A DNA stretch of 46,915 bases from NCBI GenBank assembly GCA_023663265.1, contig JAMPHV010000012.1, forward strand, positions 1 to 46,915, read 5' to 3'. The notes beneath the pieces are model-generated. The model saw only the letters and a list, made by a program, of their open reading frames with translations. It was not told the DNA's origin and did not search any database. The translations under genes were made by a program, and so were the position numbers. Origin of the DNA: Bacteroides sp. (GTDB lineage Bacteria; Bacillota; Clostridia; Oscillospirales; Ruminococcaceae). Positions 66-33,265 of the stretch are shown here, in pieces; the stretch's first letter is position 1; the number at the start of each line of letters is the position of its first letter.

Positions 66-94
66 TTGACAAACCATTTTACATATGGTATAAT
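66..94 (+). promoter_or_regulatory. sigma-A promoter of the deoxysugar/decoration operon
   Basis: TTGACA at 66-71 and TATAAT at 89-94 are separated by exactly 17 bases, matching the housekeeping consensus at every position. The start point would fall near 101, leaving about 100 bases of leader before the ATG at 205. All genes to 12703 are co-directional with short gaps or overlaps, so this promoter could drive the whole block. No operator-like repeat was seen around it. Confidence 0.85.
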
Positions 95-204: not shown

Positions 205-1596
205 ATGAATACAATTACAAGGATCGTCAAATCTCAAAATGCTTGTTCGGACGAAAAAACGCTTGCGGAGCTTTTGTCTTGGGTAAAGGAAAAAAATTCA
301 AATTTAAAGGTATCAATAACCCGAAATAAGCTTACCGACAGCGACAAATGGTTTTATGATAAAGCAAAAGGCGAGATACGCAATCTTAGCGGCACTTTTT
401 TTCAAATACGCGGTCTGCGGCAGTATCAAGGCGATGAAATGCTTTTGGAACAGCCTGTTCTCATTCAAAACGAAATAGGATATCTCGGCATGATCTGCAA
501 GGAAATTGACGGTGTTCTTCAATTTTTGGTGCAGGCGAAAATCGAACCCGGCAATGTGAACAAAATACAAATATCGCCCACTATTCAAGCAACAAAAAGC
601 AATTTCACCCAAAAGCACGGAGGAAAAAAACCGGCATATCTGGATTATTTTTTAAACGCGGCTCCCGAAAATATAATAGTGGATCAAATCCAGTCGGAGC
701 AGTCCTCACGGTTTTTGGGCAAGAGAAACAGGAACATTATCATAACGGTTGACGAGGATATAGAAGTATTGCCAAGCCATAGGTGGATGACGTTAGGTAC
801 AATAAAACAACTGATGAAGATCGATAATCTCGTCAATATGGATACCAGGACCGTTTTATCCTGCATACCGTATTGCATTGCAAAATTGCCCGACGCGGAA
901 AAGAAAAGCATTTGCGAAATGTTCTCCGATAAGGCGCTTTTCCGTTCCATGTTCGATGAAAACGATAAGGACGGACGGGATTTTGTCAAGGTCTTTCGTT
1001 ACATAAACGACTACAAAATGCTTCATTCCCGTGAAAATAAAATCGTTCCTCTGACGGAATTGGAAAACTGGGAATTTACCGACAGCGGAATTACTCACAA
1101 AACAGGCTATCCCTTTAAGGTGATTTTTTGCGACATTGAAATAGAGGGCAGGGAGGTCACTCATTGGACCCAGCCTCTTTTCGAGGCGGACGGTATGGCG
1201 ACCTTCGGGCTTATTACTGCGGATTTTGATGGCGTGAAGAAATTTCTTGTCCGTGCTAAGTCGGAGGCAGGCTGCTTTGACGGCATTGAGCTGGCTCCCA
1301 CCGTGCAGCTTGAAGCATCCGTTTCCGAGAACGATTATTCGGATATGGACAAGCTGTTTTTTGAGCTGTGGAACGGAGGAGCTGAGATAAAAAACAACGT
1401 TGTTCTGTCCGAAGAGGGCGGAAGATTTTATCACGAGCAAAACAAAAATATTATTTTAAAAGTAAATCCGGATATGATCGGAGAGCTTCCCAAGGGCTGT
1501 TTTTGGCTTGATTACACAACGCTTAATCATATGGTACAGTACAACAACGTTTTAAATATTCAGCTTCGGAATTTGTTGTCGCTGTTGGATTTTTAA
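205..1596 (+). CDS. NDP-hexose 2,3-dehydratase
   Basis: The 463-residue protein resembles the sugar 2,3-dehydratases of deoxysugar pathways (EvaA, TylX3, SpnO). These remove the C2 hydroxyl of a dTDP-4-keto-6-deoxyhexose, giving a 3,4-diketo-2,6-dideoxy sugar. The family is built from two similar halves, and this is visible here. Each half contains a GxTHxTG/FxxxG-type stretch, an HWTQP or LEQPV motif (EQPVLIQNEIG near residue 90, HWTQPLFEADG near 320), an AKxExG segment (QAKIEPG; RAKSEAG) and an SxxGGRFxxxxN-type end. Length is normal for the family. It is the first gene after the promoter at 66 and is followed 10 bases later by its expected partner, a ketoreductase. Usually seen in antibiotic or O-antigen sugar clusters. 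The substrate is inferred from rmlA/rmlB in the same operon. Confidence 0.85.
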   Translation: MNTITRIVKSQNACSDEKTLAELLSWVKEKNSNLKVSITRNKLTDSDKWFYDKAKGEIRNLSGTFFQIRGLRQYQGDEMLLEQPVLIQNEIGYLGMICKEIDGVLQFLVQAKIEPGNVNKIQISPTIQATKSNFTQKHGGKKPAYLDYFLNAAPENIIVDQIQSEQSSRFLGKRNRNIIITVDEDIEVLPSHRWMTLGTIKQLMKIDNLVNMDTRTVLSCIPYCIAKLPDAEKKSICEMFSDKALFRSMFDENDKDGRDFVKVFRYINDYKMLHSRENKIVPLTELENWEFTDSGITHKTGYPFKVIFCDIEIEGREVTHWTQPLFEADGMATFGLITADFDGVKKFLVRAKSEAGCFDGIELAPTVQLEASVSENDYSDMDKLFFELWNGGAEIKNNVVLSEEGGRFYHEQNKNIILKVNPDMIGELPKGCFWLDYTTLNHMVQYNNVLNIQLRNLLSLLDF

Positions 1597-1606
1597 GGGG
1601 AATTTA

Positions 1607-2620
1607 ATGAGTAGCAAAATTAAGATCGGCGTGCTTTGTCCGTCGGAAATAGCGTTTCGCCGCTTTATGCCCGCGTTGGAAAAATGCGAAGACTTTGAGT
1701 TTGCGGGAATATCTTCTGCAAGCTCCGAGGAATGGTTCGGCGAATCGGCTGCAGAGCTGACAGCGGCGGAAAAAAACAAAGCAAAAAAATTTGTTGACAG
1801 CTTCGGCGGCAAGCTTTTTGGGAGCTACAACGAGCTTTTAAGCTCTCCCGATATCGACGCTGTATATATTCCGCTTCCGCCCGCTTTGCATTTTAAATGG
1901 GCTAAGGAGGCGCTTGAAAAGGGAAAGCACGTTTTGCTTGAAAAGCCTTTTACGGTCGCTCTTTCGGATACCGAGGCGCTTTTAAGGACGGCGGAAGAAA
2001 AAAAACTTGCTATGCACGAAAATTATATGTTTGTATTTCATTCGCAAATCGAGTGGATAAAACAAAAGCTCGGCGAGGGAGTGATCGGTGACATACGGCT
2101 TATACGTATAGATTTCGGTTTTCCATTCCGCGGAGCGAATGATTTTCGTTATGATAAAAAGCTTGGCGGCGGTGCGCTTTTGGATTGCGGCGGATATACG
2201 GTAAAATTGGCAATCTTGTTTTTAGGCGATACGGCGCGTGTCACCGCATCTCAGCTCAATTCCAAGGACGGCTTTGAAGTGGATATTTACGGCAGCGCAA
2301 CGCTTGTGAATGATGACGGACTGACAGTGCAGGCGGCTTTCGGAATGGACAACGACTACCGTTGTAACCTTGAAATATGGGGCAGCAAGGGCACCCTTTT
2401 TACAGGCAGGATATTGACCGCGCCCGTCGATTTCGAGCCGACGGTCAGGATAAAAACCGCGGAGGGTGAACAGACGTTTACACTTTTAGCCGACGATACG
2501 TTTAAAAAATCGATCGAATTTTTTGGGAGATGTATCGGCGATATTGATGTGCGCAGAGAGCATTGCAAAGCTATTTGCAGACAGTCGAAAAATGTCGAAA
2601 AAATTCTGAGAGGAAATTGA
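1607..2620 (+). CDS. Gfo/Idh/MocA-family NDP-sugar 3-ketoreductase
   Basis: This 337-residue protein has the N-terminal Rossmann fold of the Gfo/Idh/MocA oxidoreductases (KIGVLCPSEIAFRRFMPAL) and their signature LLEKPFTV around residue 110, with the catalytic lysine in EKP. The GALLDCGGY segment near residue 190 is also typical. In 2-deoxysugar pathways such a protein (SpnN, TylC1 types) reduces the C3 keto group left by the 2,3-dehydratase, and the two genes are adjacent here. The dinucleotide loop reads VLCPSEIA rather than GxGxxA, a deviation shared by some sugar ketoreductases. The start has an AAGGGGA ribosome site. The aminotransferase gene follows after a single base, so the three are probably translated together. 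The exact stereochemistry cannot be read from sequence. Confidence 0.8.
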   Translation: MSSKIKIGVLCPSEIAFRRFMPALEKCEDFEFAGISSASSEEWFGESAAELTAAEKNKAKKFVDSFGGKLFGSYNELLSSPDIDAVYIPLPPALHFKWAKEALEKGKHVLLEKPFTVALSDTEALLRTAEEKKLAMHENYMFVFHSQIEWIKQKLGEGVIGDIRLIRIDFGFPFRGANDFRYDKKLGGGALLDCGGYTVKLAILFLGDTARVTASQLNSKDGFEVDIYGSATLVNDDGLTVQAAFGMDNDYRCNLEIWGSKGTLFTGRILTAPVDFEPTVRIKTAEGEQTFTLLADDTFKKSIEFFGRCIGDIDVRREHCKAICRQSKNVEKILRGN

Positions 2621-2621
2621 T

Positions 2622-3755
2622 ATGATCAGATTTACAAAGTCATCAATTACGGAGCTTGAAGAAAAATATGTGGTTGACGCGCTGAAAAACGGAGCTTTGT
2701 CGGGTGACGGAAAGTATACCTCAAAGGTTTACGGACAATTCAAAGAACGCTTTGGAATAGAGAGAATGCTGCTTACCACCTCTGGCACCACTGCGCTCGA
2801 GATGGCGTCGATATTGATCGATCTTGAAGCGGGCGACGAGATCATTGTTCCATCTTTCACCTTTTCATCGACCGTGAACGCTTTTTTGCTTAGAGGAGCC
2901 AAGCCTGTTTTTTGCGATATCAGAAAAGATACGATGAACATAGACGAAGGCTTGATCGAGGGTCTTATTACTCCCCGAACAAAAGCGATATACTGCGTTG
3001 ATTACGCAGGTATTCCCTGTGATTACGATGTTATAAACGACATTGCGAACCGACATGGGTTGTTTGTTATAGAAGACGCTGCACAGGCGGTGGGCTCGAA
3101 ATACAAGGGAAAATATTGCGGGACCATTACGGAATTTGGCTGTTACAGCTTTCATGAGACAAAAAACTATGTCATGGGAGAGGGCGGCGGAATCGTAATA
3201 AGCGATGAAAAATATATGGAGCGTGCAGAGATAATCCGTGAAAAAGGAACCAACCGCCGCAATGTTTTGCGCGGACTTGTTGATAAGTACACATGGCACG
3301 ATATAGGCTCCTCTTTCCTGCCCTCCGACGTATTGGCGGCGATACTTGCGGCGCAGATGGAGCGGTATGATGAAATAATGAGTAAACGAATCAATATATG
3401 GAATACATATCACGCCGCGCTTGAAGAGTGTGAAAAGGAAGGGAAGCTGATCCGTCAGTTTGTGCCCGATTACGCCGAGCATAACGGGCATATGTATAAC
3501 ATAATCCTGCCGACCGAGGAAATACGCACCAAGCTTGTTGCTGAGCTGAAAAAGGCGGAGATAATGGCGTATATTTGTTATGTGCCGCTTCACTCCGCGC
3601 CAAAAGGCTTGCAGCTTGGCTGGAATCCGCAGGATTGCCCCGTTACGGAGGATTATGGGAAGCGCGTGTTGAGATTACCGCTGTATGCGGATATGAGTAC
3701 AGAGCAGGCGGAGATGGTGGCGGGGAAGGTTTACGATATTTTAAAATGCCTATAA
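2622..3755 (+). CDS. WecE/RffA-type dTDP-4-keto-6-deoxyhexose aminotransferase (DegT/DnrJ/EryC1 family)
   Basis: The 377-residue protein is a PLP-dependent sugar aminotransferase. Visible landmarks are TSGTTALEMA near residue 53 (phosphate-binding), IVPSFTFSSTVNA near 76, VIEDAAQAVGSKYKG near 150 and SFHETKN near 181, whose lysine should bind PLP. The SFHETKN motif, the order of motifs and the length are characteristic of WecE/RffA, which makes dTDP-4-amino-4,6-dideoxygalactose (Fuc4N). The preceding genes remove the C2 oxygen, so the likely product here is a 4-amino-2,4,6-trideoxyhexose. That product is an inference. The GAGAGGAA ribosome site overlaps the end of the preceding gene. Confidence 0.87.
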   Translation: MIRFTKSSITELEEKYVVDALKNGALSGDGKYTSKVYGQFKERFGIERMLLTTSGTTALEMASILIDLEAGDEIIVPSFTFSSTVNAFLLRGAKPVFCDIRKDTMNIDEGLIEGLITPRTKAIYCVDYAGIPCDYDVINDIANRHGLFVIEDAAQAVGSKYKGKYCGTITEFGCYSFHETKNYVMGEGGGIVISDEKYMERAEIIREKGTNRRNVLRGLVDKYTWHDIGSSFLPSDVLAAILAAQMERYDEIMSKRINIWNTYHAALEECEKEGKLIRQFVPDYAEHNGHMYNIILPTEEIRTKLVAELKKAEIMAYICYVPLHSAPKGLQLGWNPQDCPVTEDYGKRVLRLPLYADMSTEQAEMVAGKVYDILKCL

Positions 3756-3767
3756 GGAGAAGCAGAA

Positions 3768-4721
3768 ATGAAAACTTTGCTTAGCTTTGTGATACCTTGC
3801 TACAGAAGTGAGTTTACTATCAAAAAGGTTATAAATGAGATAATTGAAACTGTTGCACAAAGATGCGATAAGTATGATTATGAGATAATTTGCGTTAATG
3901 ATTGTTCACCGGATAACGTTTTTGAAGTTCTGAAAAAACTTTGTGAAGTTAATTCAAAAATAAAAGTGATTGATTTTGCTAAAAATATGGGAAAGCATGC
4001 AGCGCTTATGGCAGGTTATTCTTTTGCTGACGGAGATATAGTTGTTAGCTTAGATGATGATGGACAGTGCCCGCTTGATAAGCTTGATGAATTGCTGAAC
4101 CCTTTATACGAAGGATATGATGTCTCTATAGCACGCTATCCGAAGAAAAAACAAAGTTGGTTTAAAAATTTCGGCAGCAAAATAAATCATTATATGGCGT
4201 GTGCTTTGCTTGGAAAACCAAAGGAACTACAGATATCTAATTTTTTGGCAGTAAAGAGATTTGTTTGCATAGAAATTCTTAACTATACGAATCCGTACCC
4301 ATATATCGGTGGACTTATACTTAGAACTACTAACAAAATAAAAAATGTTGTGATGGAAGAACGAAATAGGTTAAATGGGAGTTCGGGATATACTTTTATT
4401 AAGTCGTTGAAATTGTTAATAAATGGTTTTACTGCTTTTTCTGTGAAGCCATTACGATTAGCCACAATATTAGGTTTTTTTACTGCGGGAGTTGGATTCT
4501 GTTTTGCTGTTTGGATTGTTGTGCAAAAAATTATCAATCCGGAAATCGCATCGGGATACAGCTCTATAATGTCTGTTATTCTTTTTGTAGGCGGTGTATT
4601 AATGTTTCTTTTAGGATTAATTGGAGAATATGTTGGCAGAATATATATTTCACTAAATAAGTCTCCACAGTATGTTATACGAAAAAAAATAAATTTGGAA
4701 GAAAAAAGTCTAAACCATTAA
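3768..4721 (+). CDS. GT2 polyprenyl-phosphate glycosyltransferase (GtrB/ArnC/CsbB type)
   Basis: This 317-residue enzyme starts with a GT-A domain: SFVIPCYRSE at the N-terminus, the conserved GKHAALMAGY stretch near residue 75 and SLDDDGQ near residue 95 for metal and nucleotide-sugar binding. Two hydrophobic helices follow at about 230-260 and 265-295, which is the layout of GtrB, ArnC and CsbB. Those enzymes move a sugar from a nucleotide carrier to undecaprenyl phosphate on the cytoplasmic face. Two small EamA/SMR membrane proteins in the same operon would be the matching flippase. From this gene onward to about 10800 the DNA is visibly AT-richer than the flanking sugar genes. The sugar loaded is inferred to be the amino-deoxyhexose made by the surrounding genes. 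Confidence 0.85.
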   Translation: MKTLLSFVIPCYRSEFTIKKVINEIIETVAQRCDKYDYEIICVNDCSPDNVFEVLKKLCEVNSKIKVIDFAKNMGKHAALMAGYSFADGDIVVSLDDDGQCPLDKLDELLNPLYEGYDVSIARYPKKKQSWFKNFGSKINHYMACALLGKPKELQISNFLAVKRFVCIEILNYTNPYPYIGGLILRTTNKIKNVVMEERNRLNGSSGYTFIKSLKLLINGFTAFSVKPLRLATILGFFTAGVGFCFAVWIVVQKIINPEIASGYSSIMSVILFVGGVLMFLLGLIGEYVGRIYISLNKSPQYVIRKKINLEEKSLNH

Positions 4722-4807
4722 AAGTTAAAAATATGATATATGTGTCTCAAATTATAATACGTTCTAAGTATTTATGTACAAAAGAATACAGAAAATGAGG
4801 AAATATA

Positions 4808-6007
4808 ATGAAAAAAATTATGGTAATTGCCGGTGGAAATTGGCAAATTGAACTTGTGAAAAAGGCAAAGCAAATGGGACATTATGTGATATGTTCCAAT
4901 TTATATGAAGATTCTCCTGCTTTTCCATATGCTGACGCTTGTGAGGTAGCAGATGTTTTGGATAAAGAAAAAAATCTTGCAATTGCAAAAAAATATATGC
5001 CGGATGCGGTTGTTACGGATCAAAGCGATATATCCGTACCTACTGTTGCATATATCAGTGAATCCATGGGATTACAAGGTATCGGGACAAACAAGGCTAA
5101 GATTTTTACAAATAAATATGTTCTTAGAGAATTCTGTAAAATGAATAACATTGCTATACCGGAATATAAAATTTGCTATACGCCTCAAGACGCTGAAGAC
5201 ATATTAAAAAAATACAAAAAAATTGTTATAAAACCGATAGACAGTCAATCTGCCCGTGGGGTTTTTACAATTACAGATATGAGCGAGTTGAAAACTCACT
5301 TTGAGGAAACCGTAAAATACTCCAATACAGAGAAAGCGTTTATTGCAGAAGAGTATATTGATGGAGATGAATTTACAATTGACGGAATCGTTGTGAACGG
5401 ACAACATTATCCATTATGCATTTCCATAAAAGAGATGTACAAGCTTAATCCGAATGTTTCTAAAATGCAAATTTACACATATAGTCATCCTGTGTATGAT
5501 TATGAGGAACTTCGAAATATAAATCGTGATTTGATTATGAAAATAGGCTTACCGTTTGGCTTGACTCATACAGAGTACAAGTATTGTCACGGAAAGTTTT
5601 ACTTGATCGAAACAGCCGCAAGAGGCGGAGGAAGCAATTTATCCGCCAAAATAGTACCTTACATGTCAGGCATAGATAATTACAGCTATTTGATAAGATC
5701 AGCATTAGGGGAAAAAATCGATGACAGCGAATTGAAAAATATGATTCTGCCGCAAAATCGTTTTGTTATTATGCGCTTTTTTGATTTTGGAGAAGGAAAA
5801 GTAAAAAAGGTACGTGGCGAGGATTATCTAAAAAGTCTTGAAAACGTATTGGATTATTCTTTGGAAGTTTCTGAAGGTGATATCCTACGAACCCCGGCTT
5901 ACGGGAGATTACGCCCCGGACATTTTATTATTGGCGGTGATAATATGGAACAACTGAAATTGGAAATGAACAAAATTTTATCGACGGTGACTGTTGATTT
6001 TGTTTAA
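4808..6007 (+). CDS. ATP-grasp carboxylate-amine ligase-like protein
   Basis: The 399-residue protein has the three-part ATP-grasp layout: an N-terminal Rossmann-like domain (KIMVIAGGNWQIELVKKAK), a central ATP-binding part with VIKPIDSQSARGVF near residue 150 and EEYIDGDEFTIDG near 188, and a metal-binding region ending in FYLIETAARGGGSNLS near 280. Family members activate a carboxylate as acyl phosphate and join it to an amine or thiol. This subgroup is often found in surface polysaccharide loci, but I know no specific assigned reaction. Next to an amino-sugar aminotransferase and an aldolase, it is a candidate for joining a carboxylic acid to the sugar amine or to an amino acid. An 86-base gap separates it from the preceding gene. 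Confidence 0.75.
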   Translation: MKKIMVIAGGNWQIELVKKAKQMGHYVICSNLYEDSPAFPYADACEVADVLDKEKNLAIAKKYMPDAVVTDQSDISVPTVAYISESMGLQGIGTNKAKIFTNKYVLREFCKMNNIAIPEYKICYTPQDAEDILKKYKKIVIKPIDSQSARGVFTITDMSELKTHFEETVKYSNTEKAFIAEEYIDGDEFTIDGIVVNGQHYPLCISIKEMYKLNPNVSKMQIYTYSHPVYDYEELRNINRDLIMKIGLPFGLTHTEYKYCHGKFYLIETAARGGGSNLSAKIVPYMSGIDNYSYLIRSALGEKIDDSELKNMILPQNRFVIMRFFDFGEGKVKKVRGEDYLKSLENVLDYSLEVSEGDILRTPAYGRLRPGHFIIGGDNMEQLKLEMNKILSTVTVDFV

Positions 6008-6040
6008 ACTTAAATGTCTTAAATGTAAGGAATACATAGA

Positions 6041-7081
6041 ATGAAAATATTGGATACAACTATACGCGATGGTAGTTATGCCGTTGATTTTAGGTTTTCT
6101 TGCGATGATGTTAAAGAAATTGTTTCAAAGTTGGACAAATTAGGTTTTGAATTCATAGAAATCGGGCACGGGCAAGGATTAAACGCAAGTTCTCCGGAGC
6201 ATGGGATTGCAATGCATACAGACATTGAATATATGGATGCTTGTCAAAGTGTAATAAAAAACTCAAAATTTGGAGTTTTCTGTATTCCGGGTATTGCGAG
6301 ATTAAAAGATTTATATATTGCTAAAGAGCATGGGGTATCTTTTATTCGTGTAGGTGTAAATGCAGATCAGCCTAAATTGGCAAAGGAATACATTCAAGAG
6401 GCAAAAAAGCTTGGTCTGACAGTAATGACTAATTTCATGAAATCTTATATAGTGCAGGCGGAGCAGTTTGCTGAAAATTCCTGTATAGCAGAAGAGTATG
6501 GGTCAGATTATGTTTATATAGTGGATTCCGCAGGCTGTATGTTACCAAGTGATTTGGAAAAATATTGCGAAGCAATCAGAAAGCGAACAAATGTCAAATT
6601 AGGATTTCATGGTCATAATAATTTGGGTTTAGCAGTGGCGAACAGTTTATATTGTGCACAGGAAAACTTTGATTTGATAGATTGTTCTTTACAAGGTTTA
6701 GGTAGGAGTTTAGGCAACGCACCCACTGAAATGTTTGTGTTGGCGTTGGAAAAAACGGGATATCATACAGGAATAGATATCCCATGCTTATTGGAATATG
6801 GTTATGTGCTTTTACAAGATATTTCTAAAAAGGAATTACAAAACCCGTTGGATTTAGTTTGCGGATATGCAGGATTTCATTCGGGATTTTTGCGGGACAT
6901 TTATAAATGTTGTTATGAATTAAACGTCGATCCTTTGCGATTGATAATTGAATATAGCAAATATGATAAAAAAACATTAAACTATAAAAAGCTGTGTGAG
7001 ATTGCTAAGGGCTTGCCAAAGGATTTTGACAAACACCCATATAATTTTAGAAAATTCTTTTCTTCAAATTATAAAGACTAA
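6041..7081 (+). CDS. DRE-TIM metallolyase-family aldolase (HMGL-like)
   Basis: The 346-residue protein opens with LDTTIRDGSY, the DxRDG signature of the DRE-TIM metallolyase superfamily (HMG-CoA lyase, isopropylmalate synthase, 4-hydroxy-2-oxovalerate aldolase). It carries the metal-binding HGHNNLGLA motif near residue 192 and the following GLGRSLGNAPTE stretch, which resembles the GxGxRxGNA region of 4-hydroxy-2-oxoacid aldolases. These enzymes make or break carbon-carbon bonds next to a keto acid enolate. In a polysaccharide operon the likely role is to build an unusual acid or branched substituent rather than catabolism, since no partner acylating aldehyde dehydrogenase is present. Substrate unknown. 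The GTAAGGAA ribosome site fixes the start. Confidence 0.75.
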   Translation: MKILDTTIRDGSYAVDFRFSCDDVKEIVSKLDKLGFEFIEIGHGQGLNASSPEHGIAMHTDIEYMDACQSVIKNSKFGVFCIPGIARLKDLYIAKEHGVSFIRVGVNADQPKLAKEYIQEAKKLGLTVMTNFMKSYIVQAEQFAENSCIAEEYGSDYVYIVDSAGCMLPSDLEKYCEAIRKRTNVKLGFHGHNNLGLAVANSLYCAQENFDLIDCSLQGLGRSLGNAPTEMFVLALEKTGYHTGIDIPCLLEYGYVLLQDISKKELQNPLDLVCGYAGFHSGFLRDIYKCCYELNVDPLRLIIEYSKYDKKTLNYKKLCEIAKGLPKDFDKHPYNFRKFFSSNYKD

Positions 7082-7095
7082 GGCAGGAGAAACAA

Positions 7096-8076
7096 ATGAA
7101 AGCATATGGCGGATATTTACCCTTAGAACTTAGGCACGATCGTGAATATTATTGTAATAACGAGCGCATGAAAGTTAAAGCAATGAACTCAGGAAAAGCG
7201 GCGATTTATTATGCGATAAAATGTTCTAATGCAAAGAAAATTTATATACCTCATTATATCTGTCCCAGCGTAGTTGATGTGGCACGAAAAACAGGGATTG
7301 TAATTGAAAGGTATTATATTGACGAAAGCCTTTTGCCGCTGAATCTTGAATCACAAAATGAAGATTCCGCAGTTTTGTTAGTAAATTATTATGGTATTGT
7401 TTATAACAAAATAAAGGCAGAATCAGAGAAACATTCTAAAGTAATTATGGACAATACACAAGCTTTCTTTGCAGAACCGATATTACGCAAAGGAGTCTAT
7501 AATGTATATTCTTGTAAGAAATTTATTGGGGTTCCCGATGGAGGATATCTGATAGCTGATACCTTGGAGGATTTTTTGTTCGAGCAGGATTATTCAAGTA
7601 AACATATGGATTTTTGCATACAAAGCTTAGAATACGGAACAGAGCATACATATGAACAAAAAAAAGAAAATGATTTGCGATTTCTGACAGAAATTCGGCA
7701 AATGTCATATATGACGCAGCGTTTACTACAGAATGTTGACTATAATTATGTTATTGAGAAGCGTAAGGAAAATTTTCAAAAGCTTCACGAAAAGTTGAAG
7801 AAATATAATAGGATGCAGTTTGATGGAGATGAATTTGTGCCATATTATTATCCTTTTTTCGGAGAACGGAATATGCAAAAAGAACTGATTTCAAAAAAAA
7901 TTTATGCTCCTGTTTTGTGGAAGGAACTCATAACAGAAAAATTTGATAACAAGGCGGAAAAAGAATTTTCAGAAAAAATCAGTTTTATTCCTTGTGATCA
8001 GCGGTACGATGAAAACGATATGAATATAATTTCCGAACGCGTATTGGAAATTATAAGAAAGAGCGAAAAAATATAA
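7096..8076 (+). CDS. PLP-dependent aminotransferase-like protein (DegT/AAT-I fold)
   Basis: This 326-residue protein has a fold-type I PLP layout, but shorter than normal DegT enzymes (370-400 residues). NSGKAAIYYAI near residue 31 matches the phosphate-binding turn, IYIPHYICPSVVDVA near 50 the next conserved strand, IMDNTQAFFAE near 118 holds the ring-stacking aspartate, and YSCKKFIGVPDGGYLI near 137 contains the likely PLP lysine followed by the usual glycine pair. It is only distantly related to the WecE-type gene at 2622. It could aminate the product of the adjacent aldolase, giving an amino acid for the ATP-grasp or AMP-forming ligase. That role is inferred from neighbours; substrate unknown. 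Confidence 0.65.
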   Translation: MKAYGGYLPLELRHDREYYCNNERMKVKAMNSGKAAIYYAIKCSNAKKIYIPHYICPSVVDVARKTGIVIERYYIDESLLPLNLESQNEDSAVLLVNYYGIVYNKIKAESEKHSKVIMDNTQAFFAEPILRKGVYNVYSCKKFIGVPDGGYLIADTLEDFLFEQDYSSKHMDFCIQSLEYGTEHTYEQKKENDLRFLTEIRQMSYMTQRLLQNVDYNYVIEKRKENFQKLHEKLKKYNRMQFDGDEFVPYYYPFFGERNMQKELISKKIYAPVLWKELITEKFDNKAEKEFSEKISFIPCDQRYDENDMNIISERVLEIIRKSEKI

Positions 8077-8077
8077 A

Positions 8078-8728
8078 ATGAAAAATATAATCTTTGGAAA
8101 CGGTGATTTTGCAGATATATTAAGCGAAAAATTGGAAAGCCAAGGGATTAACATATATGGATATACAGTGAATCAAAAATGGCTCGAAAGTGAGTCATAT
8201 CATGAAAAAACGGTAATTGCTTTTGAAGAGCTTGACAATGAAATCGATCCTGCGGAATGTAATATTTATATCGGTGTTATCGGAAAACATATGTTTCAGC
8301 TTCGTGAGCAAATATGTCAATTGATTATTGATAAGGGTTATAAATTGCCTAATTTTATTTCCAAATCTGCTCAAGTTTTAACGAAACATATAGGATACGG
8401 TAATATCATTATGGAAAATGCGGTGATTGAAGCACACTGTAAGATCGGAAATGGAAATATTATTTGGCCAAATGTAGTTTTGCCGCATCATAACGAAATA
8501 GGTGATTTTAACAATCTCTCACCGTCTGTTTCTTTTTCGGGATATGCCAAAATCGGAAACAGATGCTTTATCGGAAATAATGCTTGCTTGAATAATCGTG
8601 TTATGATCAAGGATCGTGCGTTGGTCGGAGCAGGTGTCTTTGTGCAACATGATTTAGGAAATGAGGAGGTATTGGTTTCTGCGAAGAGTTATGTTTTACC
8701 GAATAAAAAAAGTTATGATTTTAAATAA
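8078..8728 (+). CDS. NeuD/PglD-type acyltransferase, left-handed beta-helix
   Basis: The 216-residue protein has the two-domain plan of NeuD/PglD sugar N- or O-acetyltransferases: a small Rossmann-like N-terminal half (NIIFGNGDFADILSEKL) and a C-terminal hexapeptide-repeat beta-helix (repeats such as IIMENAVIEAHCKIGNGNIIWPNVVL and IGNRCFIGNNACLN). A histidine in LPHHNEIG near residue 144 is the probable catalytic base. Such enzymes transfer an acyl group from acyl-CoA to an amino sugar. It begins one base after the stop of the aminotransferase-like gene, so the two are likely translated together. It may acylate the 4-amino-sugar of this operon. The acyl donor could be ordinary acetyl-CoA or a product of the neighbouring genes. 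Confidence 0.75.
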   Translation: MKNIIFGNGDFADILSEKLESQGINIYGYTVNQKWLESESYHEKTVIAFEELDNEIDPAECNIYIGVIGKHMFQLREQICQLIIDKGYKLPNFISKSAQVLTKHIGYGNIIMENAVIEAHCKIGNGNIIWPNVVLPHHNEIGDFNNLSPSVSFSGYAKIGNRCFIGNNACLNNRVMIKDRALVGAGVFVQHDLGNEEVLVSAKSYVLPNKKSYDFK

Positions 8729-8754
8729 CTGCAAATTTAAGGAGGAGCTTTTCT

Positions 8755-10074
8755 ATGTTATTTCAATACAATAAATATTTGACGCAGCCTTTTACTTTAC
8801 TTAAGATGAAAAAACATTTTTCCGCCATGCCATATAAAAGCAGAAGTGAAATTGAGGAAGATTCTTTTAGAAAATTAAAAGATTTATGCATATACTCCGG
8901 ACAACATGTTCCTTATTATAAAAATCTTTTTAAAAGCATTGGATTTGTGCCTGAGAATATGAATTCATATGAAGACTTTAAGAAAATACCGATTTTGGAT
9001 AAGGATATTGTAAGAAAGCATACCGAAGAACTGTGTTCTGATGAAATCAAAAAAATGAATGTAATGCCGGCGAATACTTCCGGCTCGACCGGCACCCCGC
9101 TCTCTTTCTATTTAGACATAAACGCTAATATGGCGATTTTTTGTAAGCTTTGGCTAATGTGGAATCAGAGCAAAAAATGGCGCATTGGAAAAACAATGCT
9201 CTCTATCGGCGCCGAAAATCCGGAATTAGCGGAAAAAGATTGGTGGTTTAATCCAAAGAACAGATTTTTGTATTTTACTTCAAACCGCATGACTCAAGAC
9301 AACGTAGAAATGTATTATAATTTGGCAAAGAAATATAAGGCGGCAGCTGTATGCGGCTTTCCGTCTACAATATATTTGTTCGGAAAACTTTTGAAAGAAA
9401 AAAAGTTTCGATTAGAATTCGATACCATATTTGTACATTCGGAAAATCTCTTGGACTATCAAGAAAAATTTATAAAAGAATTTTTTGGGGCAAGGATTGT
9501 AAATCAATACGGCAATAACGAAAAAGCAGGTTTAATTCATTACTGCAAAAATAATGTGCTTCACAGCCAAGATGATTACGCATATCATGAAGTTATAGAC
9601 GAACGAGGAAACGATTCATTGCCGGGTGAAATCGGAAGATTGGTCTGCACTAACTTGTTTAATTACTGTATGCCGCTGATTAGATACGATACAAGAGATA
9701 AGGTAGTTTTTTCAGACGAGAGCTGTACCTGTGGAAGTAATTTTAAAGTAGTTAAACAAATTATCGGCAGAGCTTCCGATGTTATTTATACCTCCGATAA
9801 CAGAAAGCTGTCAGTAATTGATACGGCTTTTTGGGATAGTGACAATATAGAAATGGCAAGCATATATCAGTCGGTAAAGGGAGAAGTAATCGTATCAATC
9901 GTAAAAGGTAAGGATTATTGTGAAGAAAACGAGAAGGCGTTAATTGATGGTTTTAAAAAGCAATCGGCAGGTAATTTAAAAGTTGAAATAAAATATGTAC
10001 AGGAGAAGGATATACCGAGAACACCTGCGGGAAAGGTCAAATTTATTGTTTCGGATGTAAAAGAAGAATTATGA
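8755..10074 (+). CDS. AMP-forming acyl ligase, CapK/phenylacetate-CoA ligase-like
   Basis: The 439-residue protein belongs to the CapK/PaaK branch of adenylate-forming enzymes. NTSGSTGTPLSFY near residue 116 is the ATP phosphate-binding loop, QYGNNEKAG near 256 the second core motif, and IRYDTRDKV near 310 the hinge-side aspartate region, followed by a zinc-ligand-like pair CTCG. The C-terminal PRTPAGKVKF holds the conserved late lysine. CapK homologues occur in capsule loci, where their acceptor is rarely known. In this operon it could activate a carboxylic acid for transfer to the sugar. The ribosome site AAGGAGGAG is strong. Residues 14-80 lack any signal sequence, so the enzyme should be cytoplasmic. 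Confidence 0.78.
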   Translation: MLFQYNKYLTQPFTLLKMKKHFSAMPYKSRSEIEEDSFRKLKDLCIYSGQHVPYYKNLFKSIGFVPENMNSYEDFKKIPILDKDIVRKHTEELCSDEIKKMNVMPANTSGSTGTPLSFYLDINANMAIFCKLWLMWNQSKKWRIGKTMLSIGAENPELAEKDWWFNPKNRFLYFTSNRMTQDNVEMYYNLAKKYKAAAVCGFPSTIYLFGKLLKEKKFRLEFDTIFVHSENLLDYQEKFIKEFFGARIVNQYGNNEKAGLIHYCKNNVLHSQDDYAYHEVIDERGNDSLPGEIGRLVCTNLFNYCMPLIRYDTRDKVVFSDESCTCGSNFKVVKQIIGRASDVIYTSDNRKLSVIDTAFWDSDNIEMASIYQSVKGEVIVSIVKGKDYCEENEKALIDGFKKQSAGNLKVEIKYVQEKDIPRTPAGKVKFIVSDVKEEL

Positions 10075-10108
10075 TAAAAAATAAATTTTAGTGTTTTAAG
10101 GTGCGCTT

Positions 10109-10456
10109 ATGAAAAAATCTTATATAATTCTTAATGCGATCTTGTTTTTTTATTCCCTTAGCGGTATCTGCTCAAAAACTGCCTCACAAAAAGATTTTTT
10201 TTCGTTTGAATTTATCTTGCTTTACGGTGTCGCACTGTTTATACTGGCTGTATATGCGCTTTTATGGCAGCAAATTATAAAATCCATACCACTGAACATA
10301 GCCTACGCCAATAAAGCTATTACATTAGTTTGGGGAATGATCTGGGGCACAATAATCTTTAAAGAACAAATAACGTTTTTCAATATTATAGGCGCAGCTT
10401 TGGTTCTGTTCGGTATACTTTTAATAGTAACGGGCGGTGAAAAGAAAAATGAGTGA
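10109..10456 (+). CDS. small EamA/SMR-type membrane protein, flippase subunit candidate
   Basis: A 115-residue protein of four predicted membrane helices, the half-size form of the drug/metabolite transporter superfamily. The third helix contains the family's typical IAYANKAITLVWGMIWG stretch followed by FKEQIT, seen also in EmrE-like and ArnE/ArnF proteins. It overlaps the next gene, a second half-size protein, by 8 bases. A pair of such proteins beside an ArnC/GtrB-type transferase suggests a heterodimeric flippase for the undecaprenyl-phosphate-linked sugar, as in ArnE/ArnF. That pairing is the main reason for the role. A multidrug function is less likely here. Confidence 0.75.
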   Translation: MKKSYIILNAILFFYSLSGICSKTASQKDFFSFEFILLYGVALFILAVYALLWQQIIKSIPLNIAYANKAITLVWGMIWGTIIFKEQITFFNIIGAALVLFGILLIVTGGEKKNE

Positions 10457-10799
10457 GCTTACTATATATTCTTGTCTTATAATAGGCGGTGCCTTGATTT
10501 CCTCTTTTTCCCAGATATTGCTCAAAAAAAGCGCACAGAAAACCTACGAATCCAAAATAAAGGAGTACTTAAATCCTCTCGTAATAATTGCCTATGTTCT
10601 TTTTTTCGGGTGTACTTTTCTGGGTATGTATGCACTTAAGGTGGTTCCGTTATCAATGTCGCCTATTTTAGAGGCAAGCGGATATGTTTTTGTGGCGATA
10701 CTAAGCTACATTTTTTTCAAGGAAAAGCTTACAAAAAAACAACTTATTGGAATGGCACTGATAATATCGGGAATAGTCATATATACATTAAAATTTTAG
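10449..10799 (+). CDS. small EamA/SMR-type membrane protein, second flippase subunit candidate
   Basis: A 116-residue, four-helix half-size DMT protein. The start was placed at the ATG at 10449, not the in-frame GTG at 10437, because GGTGA at 10436-10440 lies at proper spacing before the ATG. Its 3rd and 4th helices show VPLSMSPILEASGYVFVAIL and FFKEKLTKKQLIGMALI, the same pattern as its neighbour. The overlap of 8 bases indicates translational coupling and probably an equal-ratio complex. Together with the GT2 gene at 3768 it completes a lipid-sugar loading and flipping set. Confidence 0.77.
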   Translation: MSELTIYSCLIIGGALISSFSQILLKKSAQKTYESKIKEYLNPLVIIAYVLFFGCTFLGMYALKVVPLSMSPILEASGYVFVAILSYIFFKEKLTKKQLIGMALIISGIVIYTLKF

Positions 10800-10808
10800 G
10801 AGACCATA

Positions 10809-11687
10809 ATGAAAGGTATAATCTTAGCCGGTGGCAGCGGCACCCGCCTTTACCCCTGCACGATCGCCGTATCCAAGCAGCTTTTGCCGATCTACGACAA
10901 GCCGCTGATTTACTATCCTTTGTCGGTTTTACTGCTGGCGGGGATCAAGGACGTCTTGGTTATCTCTACGCCAAAGGATACTCCGAACTATGAACTGCTT
11001 TTGGGTGACGGCTCAAGATTAGGTATACATATAGAATACAAGGTGCAGGACAAGCCCCGCGGTCTTGCTGACGCCTTTATTTTAGGCGCAGACTTTATCG
11101 GCAGCGACAGCGTGTGCTTAGTGCTTGGCGATAACGTTTTCTACGGTCAAGGCTTTTCGACCTATCTTAAAGCCGCTCAAGCAAGGGCGGAAGAGGGCGG
11201 AGCGGCGGTTTTCGGCTATCCCGTCAAGAATCCGAGGGAGTTCGGCGTGGTGGAATTCGACGAAAATTTCAAGGTAATTTCAATTGAGGAAAAGCCAGCC
11301 CGACCAAAATCGAATTATGCCGTCCCCGGACTGTATTTTTACGATAACAACGTCGTCGATATAGCGAAAAACGTCAAGCCCTCCGCGCGCGGAGAGATCG
11401 AGATAACCTCGATAAACAATCGTTACCTTGAGGAAGGAAAGCTTACCGTAACCTTGATGGGTCGGGGAATGTCATGGCTTGATACAGGCTCTCCCAAGGG
11501 TATGCATAAGGCGAGCGGCTTTGTGAAAACCGTTCAGGAAATGCAGGGCTTTTATATTTCCTGCATTGAAGAGATAGCGTGGCGGCGCGGGTTCATTACA
11601 ACGGAGCAGCTTTATGCGTTGGGCGAGGAGCTGAAAATGACCGACTACGGAAAATATATTCTTTCACTTTCGGAGGAGCTGCTATGA
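10809..11687 (+). CDS. rmlA: glucose-1-phosphate thymidylyltransferase
   Basis: The 292-residue enzyme joins dTTP and glucose 1-phosphate to dTDP-glucose, the entry step of all dTDP-deoxyhexoses. The N-terminal [14 protein letters not shown] is the nucleotide-binding signature, PLIYYPLS and [11 protein letters not shown] (near residue 110) are typical of RmlA, and the C-terminus carries SWLDTGSP. Length matches the family. It follows an AGGAG ribosome site and overlaps rmlB by the four bases ATGA. The DNA is noticeably less AT-rich than the genes just upstream, so the operon looks like a mosaic. rmlC and rmlD are absent from the window, which argues that dTDP-rhamnose is not the product. Confidence 0.95.
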
Positions 11688-12703
11688 AAATTATCGTAAC
11701 AGGCGGCGCGGGATTTATCGGGGGAAATTTCGTGCATTATATGCTGAAAAAATATCCCGATTATAAAATTATCTGCGTTGACTGTCTGACCTATGCGGGA
11801 AATATGGAAACGCTTTCACCTGTTATGAAAAATCCTAATTTCAGATTCTGCAAGGCGGATATTACCGACAGGGAAGCGGTGTTCGGAGTGTTTGAAGAGG
11901 AGCGCCCCAACATTGTGGTCAACTTTGCTGCGGAAAGTCATGTTGACCGTTCGATCGAAAATCCCGATGTGTTTTTAAAAACCAATATTCTCGGAACACA
12001 GGTTATGATGGACGCTTGCAGAAAATACGGAATATATCGTTATCATCAGGTTTCCACGGACGAGGTATACGGGGACCTGCCTCTCGACAGACCCGAGCTT
12101 TTTTTTACGGAGGAAACGCCTATCCATACCTCAAGCCCCTATTCCGCTTCCAAGGCAAGCGCCGATCTGTTAGTACAAGCGTATCACAGGACCTTCGGGC
12201 TTCCCGTAACGATCTCGCGCTGCTCCAATAACTACGGTCCTTATCAATTTCCCGAAAAGCTGATCCCATTGATGATAGCCAACGCGCTGAACGATAAGCC
12301 GCTGCCCGTTTACGGAAAGGGCGAGAATGTGCGCGACTGGCTTTATGTTGAGGATCACTGCCGCGCGATCGATCTTATAATTCACAAGGGCACCGTGGGC
12401 GAGATATACAATATCGGCGGACACAACGAGATGAGGAATATCGACATTGTGAAGATCATATGCAAGGCGCTGGACAAGCCGGAATGCTTGATCACTTTTG
12501 TGACCGACCGCAAGGGGCATGATATGCGCTACGCAATCGATCCCACCAAGATACACAATGAGCTGGGCTGGCTGCCCGAAACAAAATTTGCGGACGGTAT
12601 ACCAAAAACAATTAAGTGGTATTTGGAAAACCGCGGCTGGTGGGAGAATATTATCAGCGGCGAATATCAGCAGTATTATGAAAAAATGTACGGCGGCAGG
12701 TAA
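11684..12703 (+). CDS. rmlB: dTDP-glucose 4,6-dehydratase
   Basis: The 339-residue short-chain dehydrogenase-like enzyme converts dTDP-glucose to dTDP-4-keto-6-deoxyglucose. The NAD-binding motif [11 protein letters not shown] lies at the N-terminus, HVDRSI near residue 84, the catalytic STDEVYGDL near 120 and YSASKAS near 150, with the downstream [19 protein letters not shown] that is diagnostic of RmlB. I chose the ATG at 11684, which overlaps the rmlA stop, rather than an upstream in-frame start at 11579, because homology begins there and CGGAGGAG precedes it. It is the last gene of the operon; a bidirectional terminator begins inside its stop codon. Confidence 0.95.
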
Positions 12704-12751
12704 AAATAACCGATTAGAAATCGGAAATCCGATTTCTAATCGGTTATTTTT
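12702..12751. terminator. bidirectional intrinsic terminator between the two polysaccharide operons
   Basis: A perfect 23-bp inverted repeat (12702-12724 against 12729-12751) encloses a 4-base loop. The stem has A5 at its outer left and T5 at its outer right, so it yields a hairpin followed by U residues in both directions. It overlaps the stop codon of rmlB on one side and the stop codon of the galactofuranosyltransferase gene on the other, so it ends both convergent operons. Confidence 0.92.
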
Positions 12752-14432
12752 ATTGGCTCAAATGTTTGCGCCAAAACTCAAATGAAGTGATCTCCGCGCT
12801 CCTGCAAATATAATTTTTTTGTACGCTCCTATATTTGAAAAGCAGCACAAAGGACTGTCCCAAAGCGCGGAAGCCGTATTTGACAAACTTGGCGAAGCTG
12901 CGGCGCGTTAATATCCCCTTGTCTCCGCCAAGCTGATATTGAACGGCGGATTTTCTTAAAAAGGTGTCCTCTGTTCCGATTCGGGAGAGCGGGTACGCCT
13001 TGATCTCCTTTTTCAGCGCAAACGCGGGTATTATGTGTCCGCCAAGGGTCAGTACCATTGCGGCGGTGATCTTATTGCGTCTTGCGTGCTCGTCGCTTCG
13101 CATTGTTTCGTTCCATTCGGGGAGCTCAGACAGCGGAACAAGCTGCGGAACAAGCTGCGAAAGTCTGTTGTTAAGCTGCTCCTCGTCTGTTTCAAGAAAA
13201 AAATCAACTCCGCGCAGAAAATCGCGGACAGCCATAAAAACGATCTTGCAGTTATCGTAGCGGTATAAGATCAATTGCTTTAGTATCTCAAACCAAAAGC
13301 GCTTTAATGCTTTAAAGGTGCCGTATTTTTTATGCACGGCGTTTATTGCAAGCTCATTGCGGACATTGTAATAATACAGAACAAAGCTTGTTTTTCTGTC
13401 AAACGCCTCGTGGCGAACACCTATCGCGTTCATTGTTATGATCTCGGTCCCGTGATTTTTTCTGAGACCGTATTCAATGTCGTCTCCCTTGATAAAAAAA
13501 GGAAAGGGCAGCCCGTTTTCCGTAACGGAGATCGGCATACACAGCGTCCACCACGCGCTGTAATCCAGATTGGGATTATCTAAATTATCGAGCAGATTTT
13601 TTTGTTGGCGCAAATCGATTCTGTGCTTATGGCTTGTAAGCTCGCCGTTCCACTGCGCGCCAAGCTCAAACTGCTCCCAAGGCTTATCCAGCGGAAACAT
13701 TCCCGTGCCGAACCAGCTTTTTGAAAATCGCTCTGTCAGCAGAGAGATAAAAACCGTTATCTGCTCCAAGGTTTGAGGGAAAAACTCCACATCGTCGTCC
13801 ATCAGTATAATGTGCGAAAAACTGTTGTCATACGCTTCAATAAGCCCTCTTGTAAATCCGCCGCTTCCGCCGTAGTTTTTATTCGGCAGAACCTCGATAA
13901 AGCTGTCGGAAAGTGAGGGCTCAAGCGTTTTTCCGTTATCCACAACAAAAACCCTGTTGATGAAGCTGAATTTATAATTACGCAGCAGCTCGATATTTTT
14001 CAGCACATATTGTTCTCTCTTGTATGTGCATATAGCGGCGCATACGTTTATTTTGTTCGGCTCATATTCCGCGCTGTATTTTCCCCCGATAAACTCACAG
14101 TCGGATATTGCGGTTATTTTCGGATAAAGAAACCCCTTTTCGGGAAGCTCGGAAAAATCGACAGATATTTCGGCGGAATTTTCCGCTTGAGCTTTCCGAA
14201 CGGTCCTTTCCTCGCCGTCAAAAACGCAAAGAGCTATTTCCGCTATACCGCTGAAGCTGCATAAAAAGCTTACCGAGCCGACGCGTGTATAATCGCGGTA
14301 TTTCGTGTATGAGAAGCTGTTAAAATACGTGTCGAAGGATAAGGCTTCCCCGCTTTTAAGCATAGTATCGCCGCGGTAAAACATTGTTTCATCAATATTA
14401 TCCTGTGGAAAAATTATTTCCTGCAATTTCAT
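12750..14432 (-). CDS. GlfT2-like galactofuranosyltransferase
   Basis: The protein of about 560 residues resembles the mycobacterial polymerising galactofuranosyltransferase GlfT2 and related GT2 enzymes. An N-terminal beta-rich domain (about 1-145) is followed by a GT-A domain with AAICTYKREQYVLKN, the NYGGSGGFTRG loop and the metal-binding MDDDV near residue 215. WWTLCMPIS and FFIKGDDIEYGLR near 300-330 match the acceptor and catalytic-base region. The C-terminal third is helical. UDP-galactopyranose mutase lies immediately upstream, which supports UDP-galactofuranose as donor. A GTG at 14441 overlapping the glf stop is an alternative start; I prefer the ATG at 14432 because GGGTGA stands at better spacing before it. 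Last gene of the operon. Confidence 0.87.
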   Translation of the reverse strand: MKLQEIIFPQDNIDETMFYRGDTMLKSGEALSFDTYFNSFSYTKYRDYTRVGSVSFLCSFSGIAEIALCVFDGEERTVRKAQAENSAEISVDFSELPEKGFLYPKITAISDCEFIGGKYSAEYEPNKINVCAAICTYKREQYVLKNIELLRNYKFSFINRVFVVDNGKTLEPSLSDSFIEVLPNKNYGGSGGFTRGLIEAYDNSFSHIILMDDDVEFFPQTLEQITVFISLLTERFSKSWFGTGMFPLDKPWEQFELGAQWNGELTSHKHRIDLRQQKNLLDNLDNPNLDYSAWWTLCMPISVTENGLPFPFFIKGDDIEYGLRKNHGTEIITMNAIGVRHEAFDRKTSFVLYYYNVRNELAINAVHKKYGTFKALKRFWFEILKQLILYRYDNCKIVFMAVRDFLRGVDFFLETDEEQLNNRLSQLVPQLVPLSELPEWNETMRSDEHARRNKITAAMVLTLGGHIIPAFALKKEIKAYPLSRIGTEDTFLRKSAVQYQLGGDKGILTRRSFAKFVKYGFRALGQSFVLLFKYRSVQKNYICRSAEITSFEFWRKHLSQ

Positions 14433-14437
14433 ACCGC

Positions 14438-16379: not shown

Positions 16380-16406
16380 AGCTGTTTTATTTTTTCGGAA
16401 TACTTC

Positions 16407-17171: not shown

Positions 17172-17183
17172 ATTCTTCCTCGA

Positions 17184-28147: not shown

Positions 28148-28169
28148 TTTTCGGTTTTCCGCCTTTCGG

Positions 28170-30869: not shown

Positions 30870-30874
30870 ATCCT

Positions 30875-33217: not shown

Positions 33218-33265
33218 AACAATTATTCCCCCTTTGTAAGATATTTCGGAGGTCAAACCGTATGA

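Follow-up and report, generated by a model that had tools for sequence, protein, structure and literature searches.

In this study, we describe an eight-gene block that interrupts an amino-sugar operon in contig JAMPHV010000012.1 of Bacteroides sp. (assembly GCA_023663265.1, assigned by GTDB to the Ruminococcaceae). The stretch analysed comprises 46,915 nucleotides (positions 1 to 46,915, forward strand) and is referred to as the window. On balance, and with modest confidence, we propose that the block is an acquired cassette which makes an amino-acid-type N-acyl group, attaches it to a 4-amino-2,4,6-trideoxyhexose and sends the sugar so modified out of the cell. The computed part of the case consists of the genes themselves, their close packing on one strand, the foreign composition of the block, the differing modules found in the same slot of related loci and the recurrence of sub-modules elsewhere.

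Open reading frames (ORFs) were called from the window sequence. The block and the sugar-making genes form an operon of 13 genes, all on the + strand, with intergenic gaps of at most 86 bases. Its first three genes encode an NDP-hexose 2,3-dehydratase (205..1596; Pfam PF03559, E 4e-126), a Gfo/Idh/MocA oxidoreductase recognised by family match (1607..2620; presumably the 3-ketoreductase) and a WecE-type sugar 4-aminotransferase (2622..3755; NCBIfam NF008687, 503.2 bits, cut-off 375), the only WecE gene within the operon. The last two encode the glucose-1-phosphate thymidylyltransferase RfbA/RmlA (10809..11687; TIGR01207, 464.4 bits, cut-off 360.65) and the dTDP-glucose 4,6-dehydratase RfbB/RmlB (11684..12703; TIGR01181, 490.7 bits, cut-off 365.1; the ORF is listed from 11579, with an ATG at 11684). 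From these families the predicted product of the operon is dTDP-4-amino-2,4,6-trideoxyhexose. A promoter-like site (66..94, + strand; TTGACA-17-TATAAT, matching the consensus at 12/12 positions with TG before the second hexamer, a consensus match only) lies ahead of the operon, and a terminator-like hairpin of 20 pairs (12705..12748, unstranded), the longest stem listed, closes it. The window contains 53 promoter-like sites vs 42.0 (standard deviation (SD) 6.7) in shuffled sequences, 66..94 being the only 12/12 site listed, and 17 terminator-like sites vs 13.7 (SD 3.7). As consensus matches, the two elements appear to bracket the 13 genes, which does not by itself prove a transcript.

Eight genes lie between wecE and rfbA (3768-10799) and encode a GT2 protein, five enzymes and two small membrane proteins. 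The five enzyme genes are consecutive ORFs with ATG starts, separated by 33, 14, 1 and 26 bases. An earlier note, written from the sequence alone, had singled out these five as a tightly spaced cassette inside an amino-sugar operon. The setting, the coordinates and the enzyme classes proved right (the pyridoxal phosphate (PLP) enzyme by profile comparison only), while the real unit is larger, the GT2 gene and the two small membrane genes having been overlooked. Third-position GC content (GC3) is 0.26-0.36 in the eight genes (0.26-0.35 in the six longer than 200 aa), 0.49-0.52 in the three upstream sugar genes (0.49 in the 2,3-dehydratase gene) and 0.58-0.59 in rfbA and rfbB (0.59 in rfbA). As a reference we used ORFs of at least 200 aa, called by a simple longest-ORF rule across 32 contig stretches from this genome, which gave a mean of 0.629 (SD 0.050; 232 ORFs) and a value of 0.36 or less in 1/232. 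Because its GC3 is far below that of the rest of the genome, the block is most likely foreign. All eight frames are open over their full length.

We searched 71 genomes of the genus for the hexose 2,3-dehydratase and found it in five, the window's own included. The slot after wecE is occupied in the window by the GT2, ATP-grasp, aldolase, PLP, NeuD, CapK and two SMR genes. The slot of genome G015 holds an ATP-grasp gene (30% identical), a PLP gene (44%), a NeuD gene (40%) and a GT2 gene, after which the contig ends. A different module is present in G020 (L185:7450-17469). It comprises a radical SAM protein, an aldo-keto reductase, a PglD-like left-handed beta-helix protein, a FabG-like short-chain dehydrogenase/reductase (SDR), an apparent acyl carrier protein (an ORF of 78 aa), an AMP-ligase, LuxE, LuxC, an LDH-like protein and one more ORF, and is followed by rfbA and rfbB. 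This module resembles the N-acyl modules of tetronate type known from perosamine O-antigens; the whole G020 operon has a low GC3 (0.35-0.50), so composition is no marker of a swap there. The two remaining loci, in G004 and G953, have no WecE match and carry an RmlC-like epimerase and an SDR instead. These are followed in G004 by a UGM-like gene, rfbA and rfbB; only 3.4 kb of the locus exists in G953. A NeuD/PglD-like acyl module was therefore seen in 3/3 loci with WecE vs 0/2 without, a small sample. Within the limits of that sample, the strongest argument that the 4-amine is N-acylated comes from this link between acyl module and aminotransferase. The joining of an acid or amino acid to the 4-amino sugar, as had been suggested for the five enzymes, is probable, since the wecE-rfbA slot holds different N-acyl cassettes in two congeners and none was seen in the two loci with no wecE match, one of them the 3.4-kb fragment. 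As a separate observation, a PEP-mutase-like gene (286.4 bits, cut-off 319.55) and an apparent iron-type alcohol dehydrogenase gene lie just upstream of the sugar operon of G004 (L184:10-1713), possibly pointing to phosphonate decoration.

The first enzyme of the block is an ATP-grasp carboxylate-amine ligase (4808..6007; 399 aa; PF13535 (ATP-grasp_4), 46.5 bits, cut-off 27) with a LAL_C2 domain (PF18603, 38.8 bits, cut-off 29.4). It shares this domain pair with the L-amino acid ligases BL00235, BacD and DdaF and matches the BL00235 ligase 3vot (E 8e-17) and BacD (about E 1e-8) in the PDB. It is distant from these enzymes (DdaF 45.6 bits, cut-off 840) and differs from them in that ligases of its type are found in amino-sugar operons, so that a sugar probably serves as the amine acceptor. 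The window protein is 64% identical to its counterpart in G822 (L168) and 37% to that in G573 (L161). In a tree of 95 ATP-grasp proteins it falls in a clade of other aldolase-linked ligases: the window, G822, G573, G861 and G739 form one set (support 100/99), separate from 85 ATP-grasp proteins taken from the loci of PLP enzyme relatives (see below), with some branches very long, including that of G739. An ATP-grasp gene is directly beside a sugar aminotransferase gene in G015, G739 (order WecE-ATP-grasp-GT2-SMR-SMR) and G861 (adjoining DegT), and L220 and L221 are similar. Acetoanaerobium has the order WecE-GT2-ATP-grasp, and one record from Parabacteroides has the order ATP-grasp, sugar transferase, ATP-grasp, DegT. 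A plasmid search with the ATP-grasp protein gave 11 records. The window has both genes in one operon with the GT2 gene between them. An ATP-grasp gene close to an amino-sugar aminotransferase gene is thus a widely recurring arrangement, to which the aldolase has been added. As the ligase gene turns up close to GT2 and aminotransferase genes in loci that have no NeuD or CapK, we regard the ligase as the likeliest N-acylating enzyme.

The second enzyme is a DRE-TIM metal-dependent pyruvate aldolase (6041..7081; 346 aa) of the HMGL-like/4-hydroxy-2-oxovalerate aldolase type, with 1nvm as best PDB match (E 3e-58). It belongs to the same HMGL-like family as DmpG, BphI and MhpE and has their RD and HxH metal/pyruvate residues, R9, D10, H190 and H192 being kept in 39/39 aligned aldolases. 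Five other positions (13, 80, 134, 222 and 280, window numbering) change together in this alignment. His13/Tyr280 is present in 34/39 proteins, mostly with Leu80/Met134/Ala222, and Tyr13/Phe80/Lys134/Arg222/His280 in 3/39 (window, G573 and G822). Asn13/Phe80/Lys134/Arg222/His280 is found in 2/39 (G688 and G497), whose surroundings do not read as glycan loci. Positions 13 and 280 align with His21 and Tyr291 of DmpG. Judged by this alignment, the subfamily has the DmpG active-site pair exchanged (His21 to Tyr, Tyr291 to His). The window enzyme further differs from DmpG in Phe80 for Leu88, and from DmpG, BphI and MhpE in Lys134 and Arg222 where those have Met and Ala. The two added residues, located by alignment only, suggest an acidic acceptor, provided that they face the pocket. 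Close relatives of this aldolase are rare: one was found in 217 genomes of the family (G822, 55% identical) and one in 295 genomes of the order (G573, 58%), and other matches in 398 genomes of the phylum were at most 38% identical. A further draw of 262 family genomes yielded no clade members beyond these two and the window. An ATP-grasp gene adjoins the aldolase gene in all three members of the clade (n = 3), and 29 other aldolase loci (L045-L073, about 1.5 kb on each side) contained no match to the ATP-grasp, PLP, NeuD or CapK proteins.

The third enzyme (7096..8076; 326 aa) appears to be a divergent DegT-like PLP enzyme. It has no Pfam match (PF01041 included) or NCBIfam match at E 0.001 and no PDB-sequence match at E 1; its comparison with DegT by hhalign gave 98.1% probability (E 1e-13, 286 columns). 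The hhalign result reads as placing K141, not K142, over the WecE lysine, a shift of one residue. In the family alignment Lys142 and Asp119 are invariant (82/82 rows) and position 141 is Arg in 81/82. We took the best 80 of 184 relatives in GTDB contigs (L074-L153), added three earlier loci and removed two duplicates, which left 81 loci, some of them ending early at contig ends. In 50 of these loci the neighbouring ORF on the same strand encodes an ATP-grasp protein, and 55 have an ATP-grasp gene at some position. Genes of the DegT/WecE family are present in 60, NeuD in 4 and CapK in none; HMGL matches (at most 47.3 bits) in 4 loci are not aldolases of the window type. As an observation in its own right, the relatives form a Pfam-less DegT-like PLP family, mostly adjoining an ATP-grasp gene, for which we found no described function and which is spread over several phyla (the records include Bacillota, Bacteroidota, Spirochaetota, Synergistota, the genus Caballeronia and others).

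The remaining two enzymes are a NeuD/PglD-type left-handed beta-helix N-acyltransferase (8078..8728; 216 aa) and a CapK/PaaK-like AMP-forming acid ligase (8755..10074; 439 aa). The former has a Hexapep domain and matches the structures of PglD and VioB, scoring 141.2 bits with TIGR03570, under the cut-off of 160.8. The latter matches PDB 4r1l (E 6e-21) and has no Pfam match; its best NCBIfam, NF045666 (E 6e-31, 107.7 bits), is under the cut-off of 300. We also tried CapK as a marker of the cassette and found it uninformative, with matches in 47/60 genomes (window's own included) and the best match outside only 26% identical.

The three membrane-related genes of the block concern export. Its first gene encodes a PgfS/ArnC-like GT2 protein (3768..4721; GC3 0.26) with two C-terminal transmembrane-like segments, which scores below the NCBIfam cut-offs and is presumed to be a sugar:undecaprenyl-phosphate transferase. 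Downstream of capK follow two small EamA/SMR proteins, presumed flippase subunits, the first ArnE-like (10109..10456; ArnE 38.4 bits, cut-off 92) and the second (10437..10799), the last gene of the block, for which EbrA is the top NCBIfam match at E 1e-8 (38.8 bits, cut-off 160), with no Arn match in NCBIfam at that E-value. A crude hydropathy scan gave two and four transmembrane-like segments, respectively. The 4-amino-4-deoxy-L-arabinose (Ara4N) pathway proceeds through ArnB, ArnC and ArnE/ArnF. Like that pathway, the window operon combines a 4-aminotransferase, an ArnC-like GT2 with C-terminal transmembrane segments and two small SMR-type subunits, a gene set which by analogy suggests an undecaprenyl phosphate-linked 4-amino sugar that is flipped. 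In contrast to the Ara4N pathway, where formylation is transient, the window has an acyl-making cassette and uses a dTDP-2,6-dideoxy sugar route; the GT2 and ArnE matches are under the equivalog cut-offs.

Taken together, the families suggest the following sequence, whose order is itself inferred. RfbA, RfbB, the 2,3-dehydratase, the Gfo/Idh oxidoreductase and WecE would supply dTDP-4-amino-2,4,6-trideoxyhexose. The aldolase would join pyruvate to an aldehyde or keto acid to give a 4-hydroxy-2-oxo acid, which the DegT-like enzyme would convert by amination into a 4-hydroxy amino acid. The carboxylate of this amino acid would be activated as an acyl phosphate by the ATP-grasp ligase and coupled to the sugar's 4-amino group. 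CapK would activate a second acid and NeuD would transfer it, most likely onto the amine of the amino acid, yielding an N-acyl-aminoacyl sugar. Finally, the GT2 protein would transfer the sugar to undecaprenyl phosphate, after which the pair of small subunits would flip it and an outward-facing transferase would pass it to a surface polymer.

A more specific, and rather speculative, version of this scheme takes the aldolase as a new subfamily with its active-site histidine moved from the DmpG His21 to the Tyr291 position and with Lys134 and Arg222 added. The aldolase might join pyruvate to an acidic acceptor (e.g. pyruvate or glyoxylate), the DegT-like enzyme might convert what results to an amino acid of the 4-hydroxy(-4-methyl)glutamate type and the ATP-grasp ligase might fix it to the 4-amino sugar, the acyl-making and exporting block being an exchangeable cassette between wecE and rfbA. 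In BphI, Tyr290 and Leu87 set the C4 stereochemistry, and L87N or L87W together with Y290F inverts 4S to 4R (PMC3962088). If, as we infer, BphI numbering is DmpG numbering minus one and DmpG Leu88, taken as BphI Leu87, corresponds to Phe80 of the window, these mutant data would by analogy further predict the opposite C4 configuration. The proposed decoration was not found in the literature searched.

With regard to known glycans, the earlier note had compared the logic of the cassette to the acyl side chain of anthrose. An anthrose-like acyl route was rejected after a Pfam scan of ten operon proteins detected no enoyl-CoA hydratase-type family. The likeness to anthrose is loose, and nearer precedents are offered by the type B flagellin glycan of C. 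difficile (PMC5207245, PMC5207246) and by N-acyl-aminoacyl 4-amino-4,6-dideoxyglucose (Qui4N; PMC3210612). In the C. difficile type B flagellin, a sulfonated peptidylamido-glycan (CDR20291_0244-0247), Gly or Ala is amide-linked to an amino sugar that is attributed to an FdtB-like aminotransferase, the linked unit being given as Gly or Ala/N-methylglycine (PMC5207245, PMC5207246). Mutation of the ATP-grasp gene abolishes the extension (PMC5207246). An amide-linked amino acid on an amino sugar and a part for an ATP-grasp gene in adding it are what the system has in common with the pathway proposed here; taurine-containing further units follow in C. difficile. An ATP-grasp gene beside a sugar aminotransferase gene marks cassettes of this kind, and the window has such a pair in one operon. 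In contrast to the window, the portions of these papers used here name FemAB-like and ornithine-cyclodeaminase-like genes and no aldolase, DegT-like PLP enzyme, NeuD or CapK, and the sugar is a 3-amino sugar (Fuc3N) on flagellin that does not take an undecaprenyl-phosphate route; this comparison is by description, not by sequence. Qui4N in O-antigens of other organisms carries N-acetylglycyl and N-[(R)-3-hydroxybutyryl]-L-alanyl groups, which are of the chemical type predicted for the window's product (PMC3210612). The ATP-grasp amidoligase Cj1438 of C. jejuni HS:2 likewise forms an amide on a surface sugar; unlike the enzyme proposed here, it is TupA-like and works with reversed polarity, joining a sugar carboxylate to an amine (PMC11800379).

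Several points weigh against the proposed pathway. Which enzyme acylates which amine is a tentative assignment, and the product, the enzyme activities and expression are predictions from genes. The small membrane genes score under the Arn cut-offs, and SMR pairs can be drug pumps, as the EbrA match illustrates. The C. difficile ATP-grasp mutant lost the amino sugar too and so offers no proof of ligase activity (PMC5207246). The five enzyme genes were found together only in the window: queries with the PLP, CapK and aldolase proteins against the sampled genomes (1994, a partial draw, with the best 80 of 184 PLP relatives) revealed no second locus with all five. The closest sets are those of G573 and G822. 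The order in G573 is ATP-grasp (37%), aldolase, GNAT, CapK-like (only 25% identical), DegT, acyltransferase-3, rfbA, rfbB and apparent rmlD and rmlC. This locus has neither a window-type PLP gene nor a NeuD gene; therefore, the PLP step may be unconnected with what the aldolase makes. In G822 (84% complete), ATP-grasp (64%), aldolase, PLP (34%) and a 298-aa ORF lie beside apparent fatty-acid synthesis genes, outside a glycan locus and in a genome with no 2,3-dehydratase match; therefore, the trio need not act on the window's sugar or on any sugar. The 298-aa protein (L168:7320-8213), which ends this stand-alone operon, has no Pfam match and no relative besides itself among the ORFs of 85 loci; we take its TFDGDM and WHIHP strings to recall NodB-type deacetylases. 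The earlier note had treated the five genes as one cassette and had regarded a mostly separate occurrence as evidence against its reading. A single evolutionary cassette is not supported. The separate occurrence is half borne out: the full set was found only in the window, and sub-modules do recur, aldolase with ATP-grasp and, separately, ATP-grasp with PLP (and NeuD).

This separation of sub-modules speaks for two independent acylations, in which ATP-grasp, aldolase and PLP enzyme form an amide on the 4-amine, CapK and NeuD serve another amino sugar or position, and the genes were merely collected in one slot. In G015, ATP-grasp, PLP and NeuD occur with neither CapK nor aldolase before the contig ends, ATP-grasp, aldolase and a CapK-like gene occur in G573 without PLP or NeuD, and CapK is missing from all 81 PLP loci. 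However, the low GC3 common to all eight genes and the gaps of at most 86 bases suggest one unit, and the operon has a single WecE; we consider this explanation unlikely. Still less likely is that the aldolase, ATP-grasp and PLP trio produces a small molecule that stays free, similar to a dipeptide as with the bacilysin and dapdiamide ligases, the sugar genes being mere neighbours. The trio of G822 outside a glycan locus and the LAL_C2 domain with its BL00235 and BacD matches would fit such a role. In the window and in G573, however, the genes are inside an amino-sugar operon, and the nearest ATP-grasp relatives in G861 and G739 adjoin sugar aminotransferases.

We also considered a plain catabolic or housekeeping 4-hydroxy-2-oxovalerate aldolase unconnected to the sugar. 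Aldolases of this name are indeed the top NCBIfam matches (PRK08195 above its cut-off, TIGR03217 below). A plasmid search with the aldolase gave 286 records; of the 15 listed, 12 were named dmpG, two were unannotated and one (H5) has the gene beside mhpD and an acetaldehyde dehydrogenase gene. This dehydrogenase was present in all six canonical aldolase loci viewed (L045 by scan, five recognised by sequence), whereas no acylating acetaldehyde dehydrogenase was found among the scanned operon proteins. The window aldolase is thus without the partner of DmpG, BphI and MhpE, and its C-terminal stretch past position 307 is unmatched by the family model. With five positions altered together and an ATP-grasp neighbour in 3/3 clade members, a catabolic role is very improbable. 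Equally improbable is a decayed or silent cassette, for which its rarity (the aldolase clade in 3/262 family genomes, window included) and foreign composition could be cited, given eight full-length frames, the conserved PLP and aldolase residues kept and the promoter-like site and terminator-like hairpin flanking the operon.

Several genes on the - strand of the window may bear on the fate of the sugar. Two proteins that resemble each other (687 and 697 aa; 18015-20078 and 20143-22236), with 11 and 13 transmembrane-like segments, a low GC3 of 0.38 and no Pfam match, are candidate outward-facing (GT-C-like) transferases using the undecaprenyl phosphate-linked sugar. Directly after the operon (12750-17963) lie genes for a GlfT2-like galactofuranosyltransferase, a UDP-galactopyranose mutase (TIGR00031, 444.5 bits, cut-off 303.75), a DUF4422 protein and an ABC-2 exporter pair. 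They may constitute a galactofuranose polymer export locus, and the decorated sugar may be attached to that polymer. Beyond these, a 754-aa protein with no Pfam match and no transmembrane-like segments (22258-24522) is encoded between a membrane pair and a UDP-sugar dehydrogenase, and three successive proteins of 793-899 aa (25763-33256) have a GT2 domain fused to a GT4 domain.

Aminoacylated amino sugars and export on undecaprenyl phosphate are already known in kind, and no paper in the open literature searched describes the five-gene set or the gene combination of the window. If the proposed pathway is correct, an aldol-derived amino acid would extend the known range of acyl groups on bacterial amino sugars, and the exchanged active-site pair would offer a compact system in which to test how class II pyruvate aldolases control stereochemistry. 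The wecE-rfbA interval would represent a natural slot where whole acyl chemistries swap on one sugar operon. An ATP-grasp gene beside wecE/degT together with an ArnC-like GT2 gene would then be a genetic signature for aminoacylated surface sugars in gut Clostridia.

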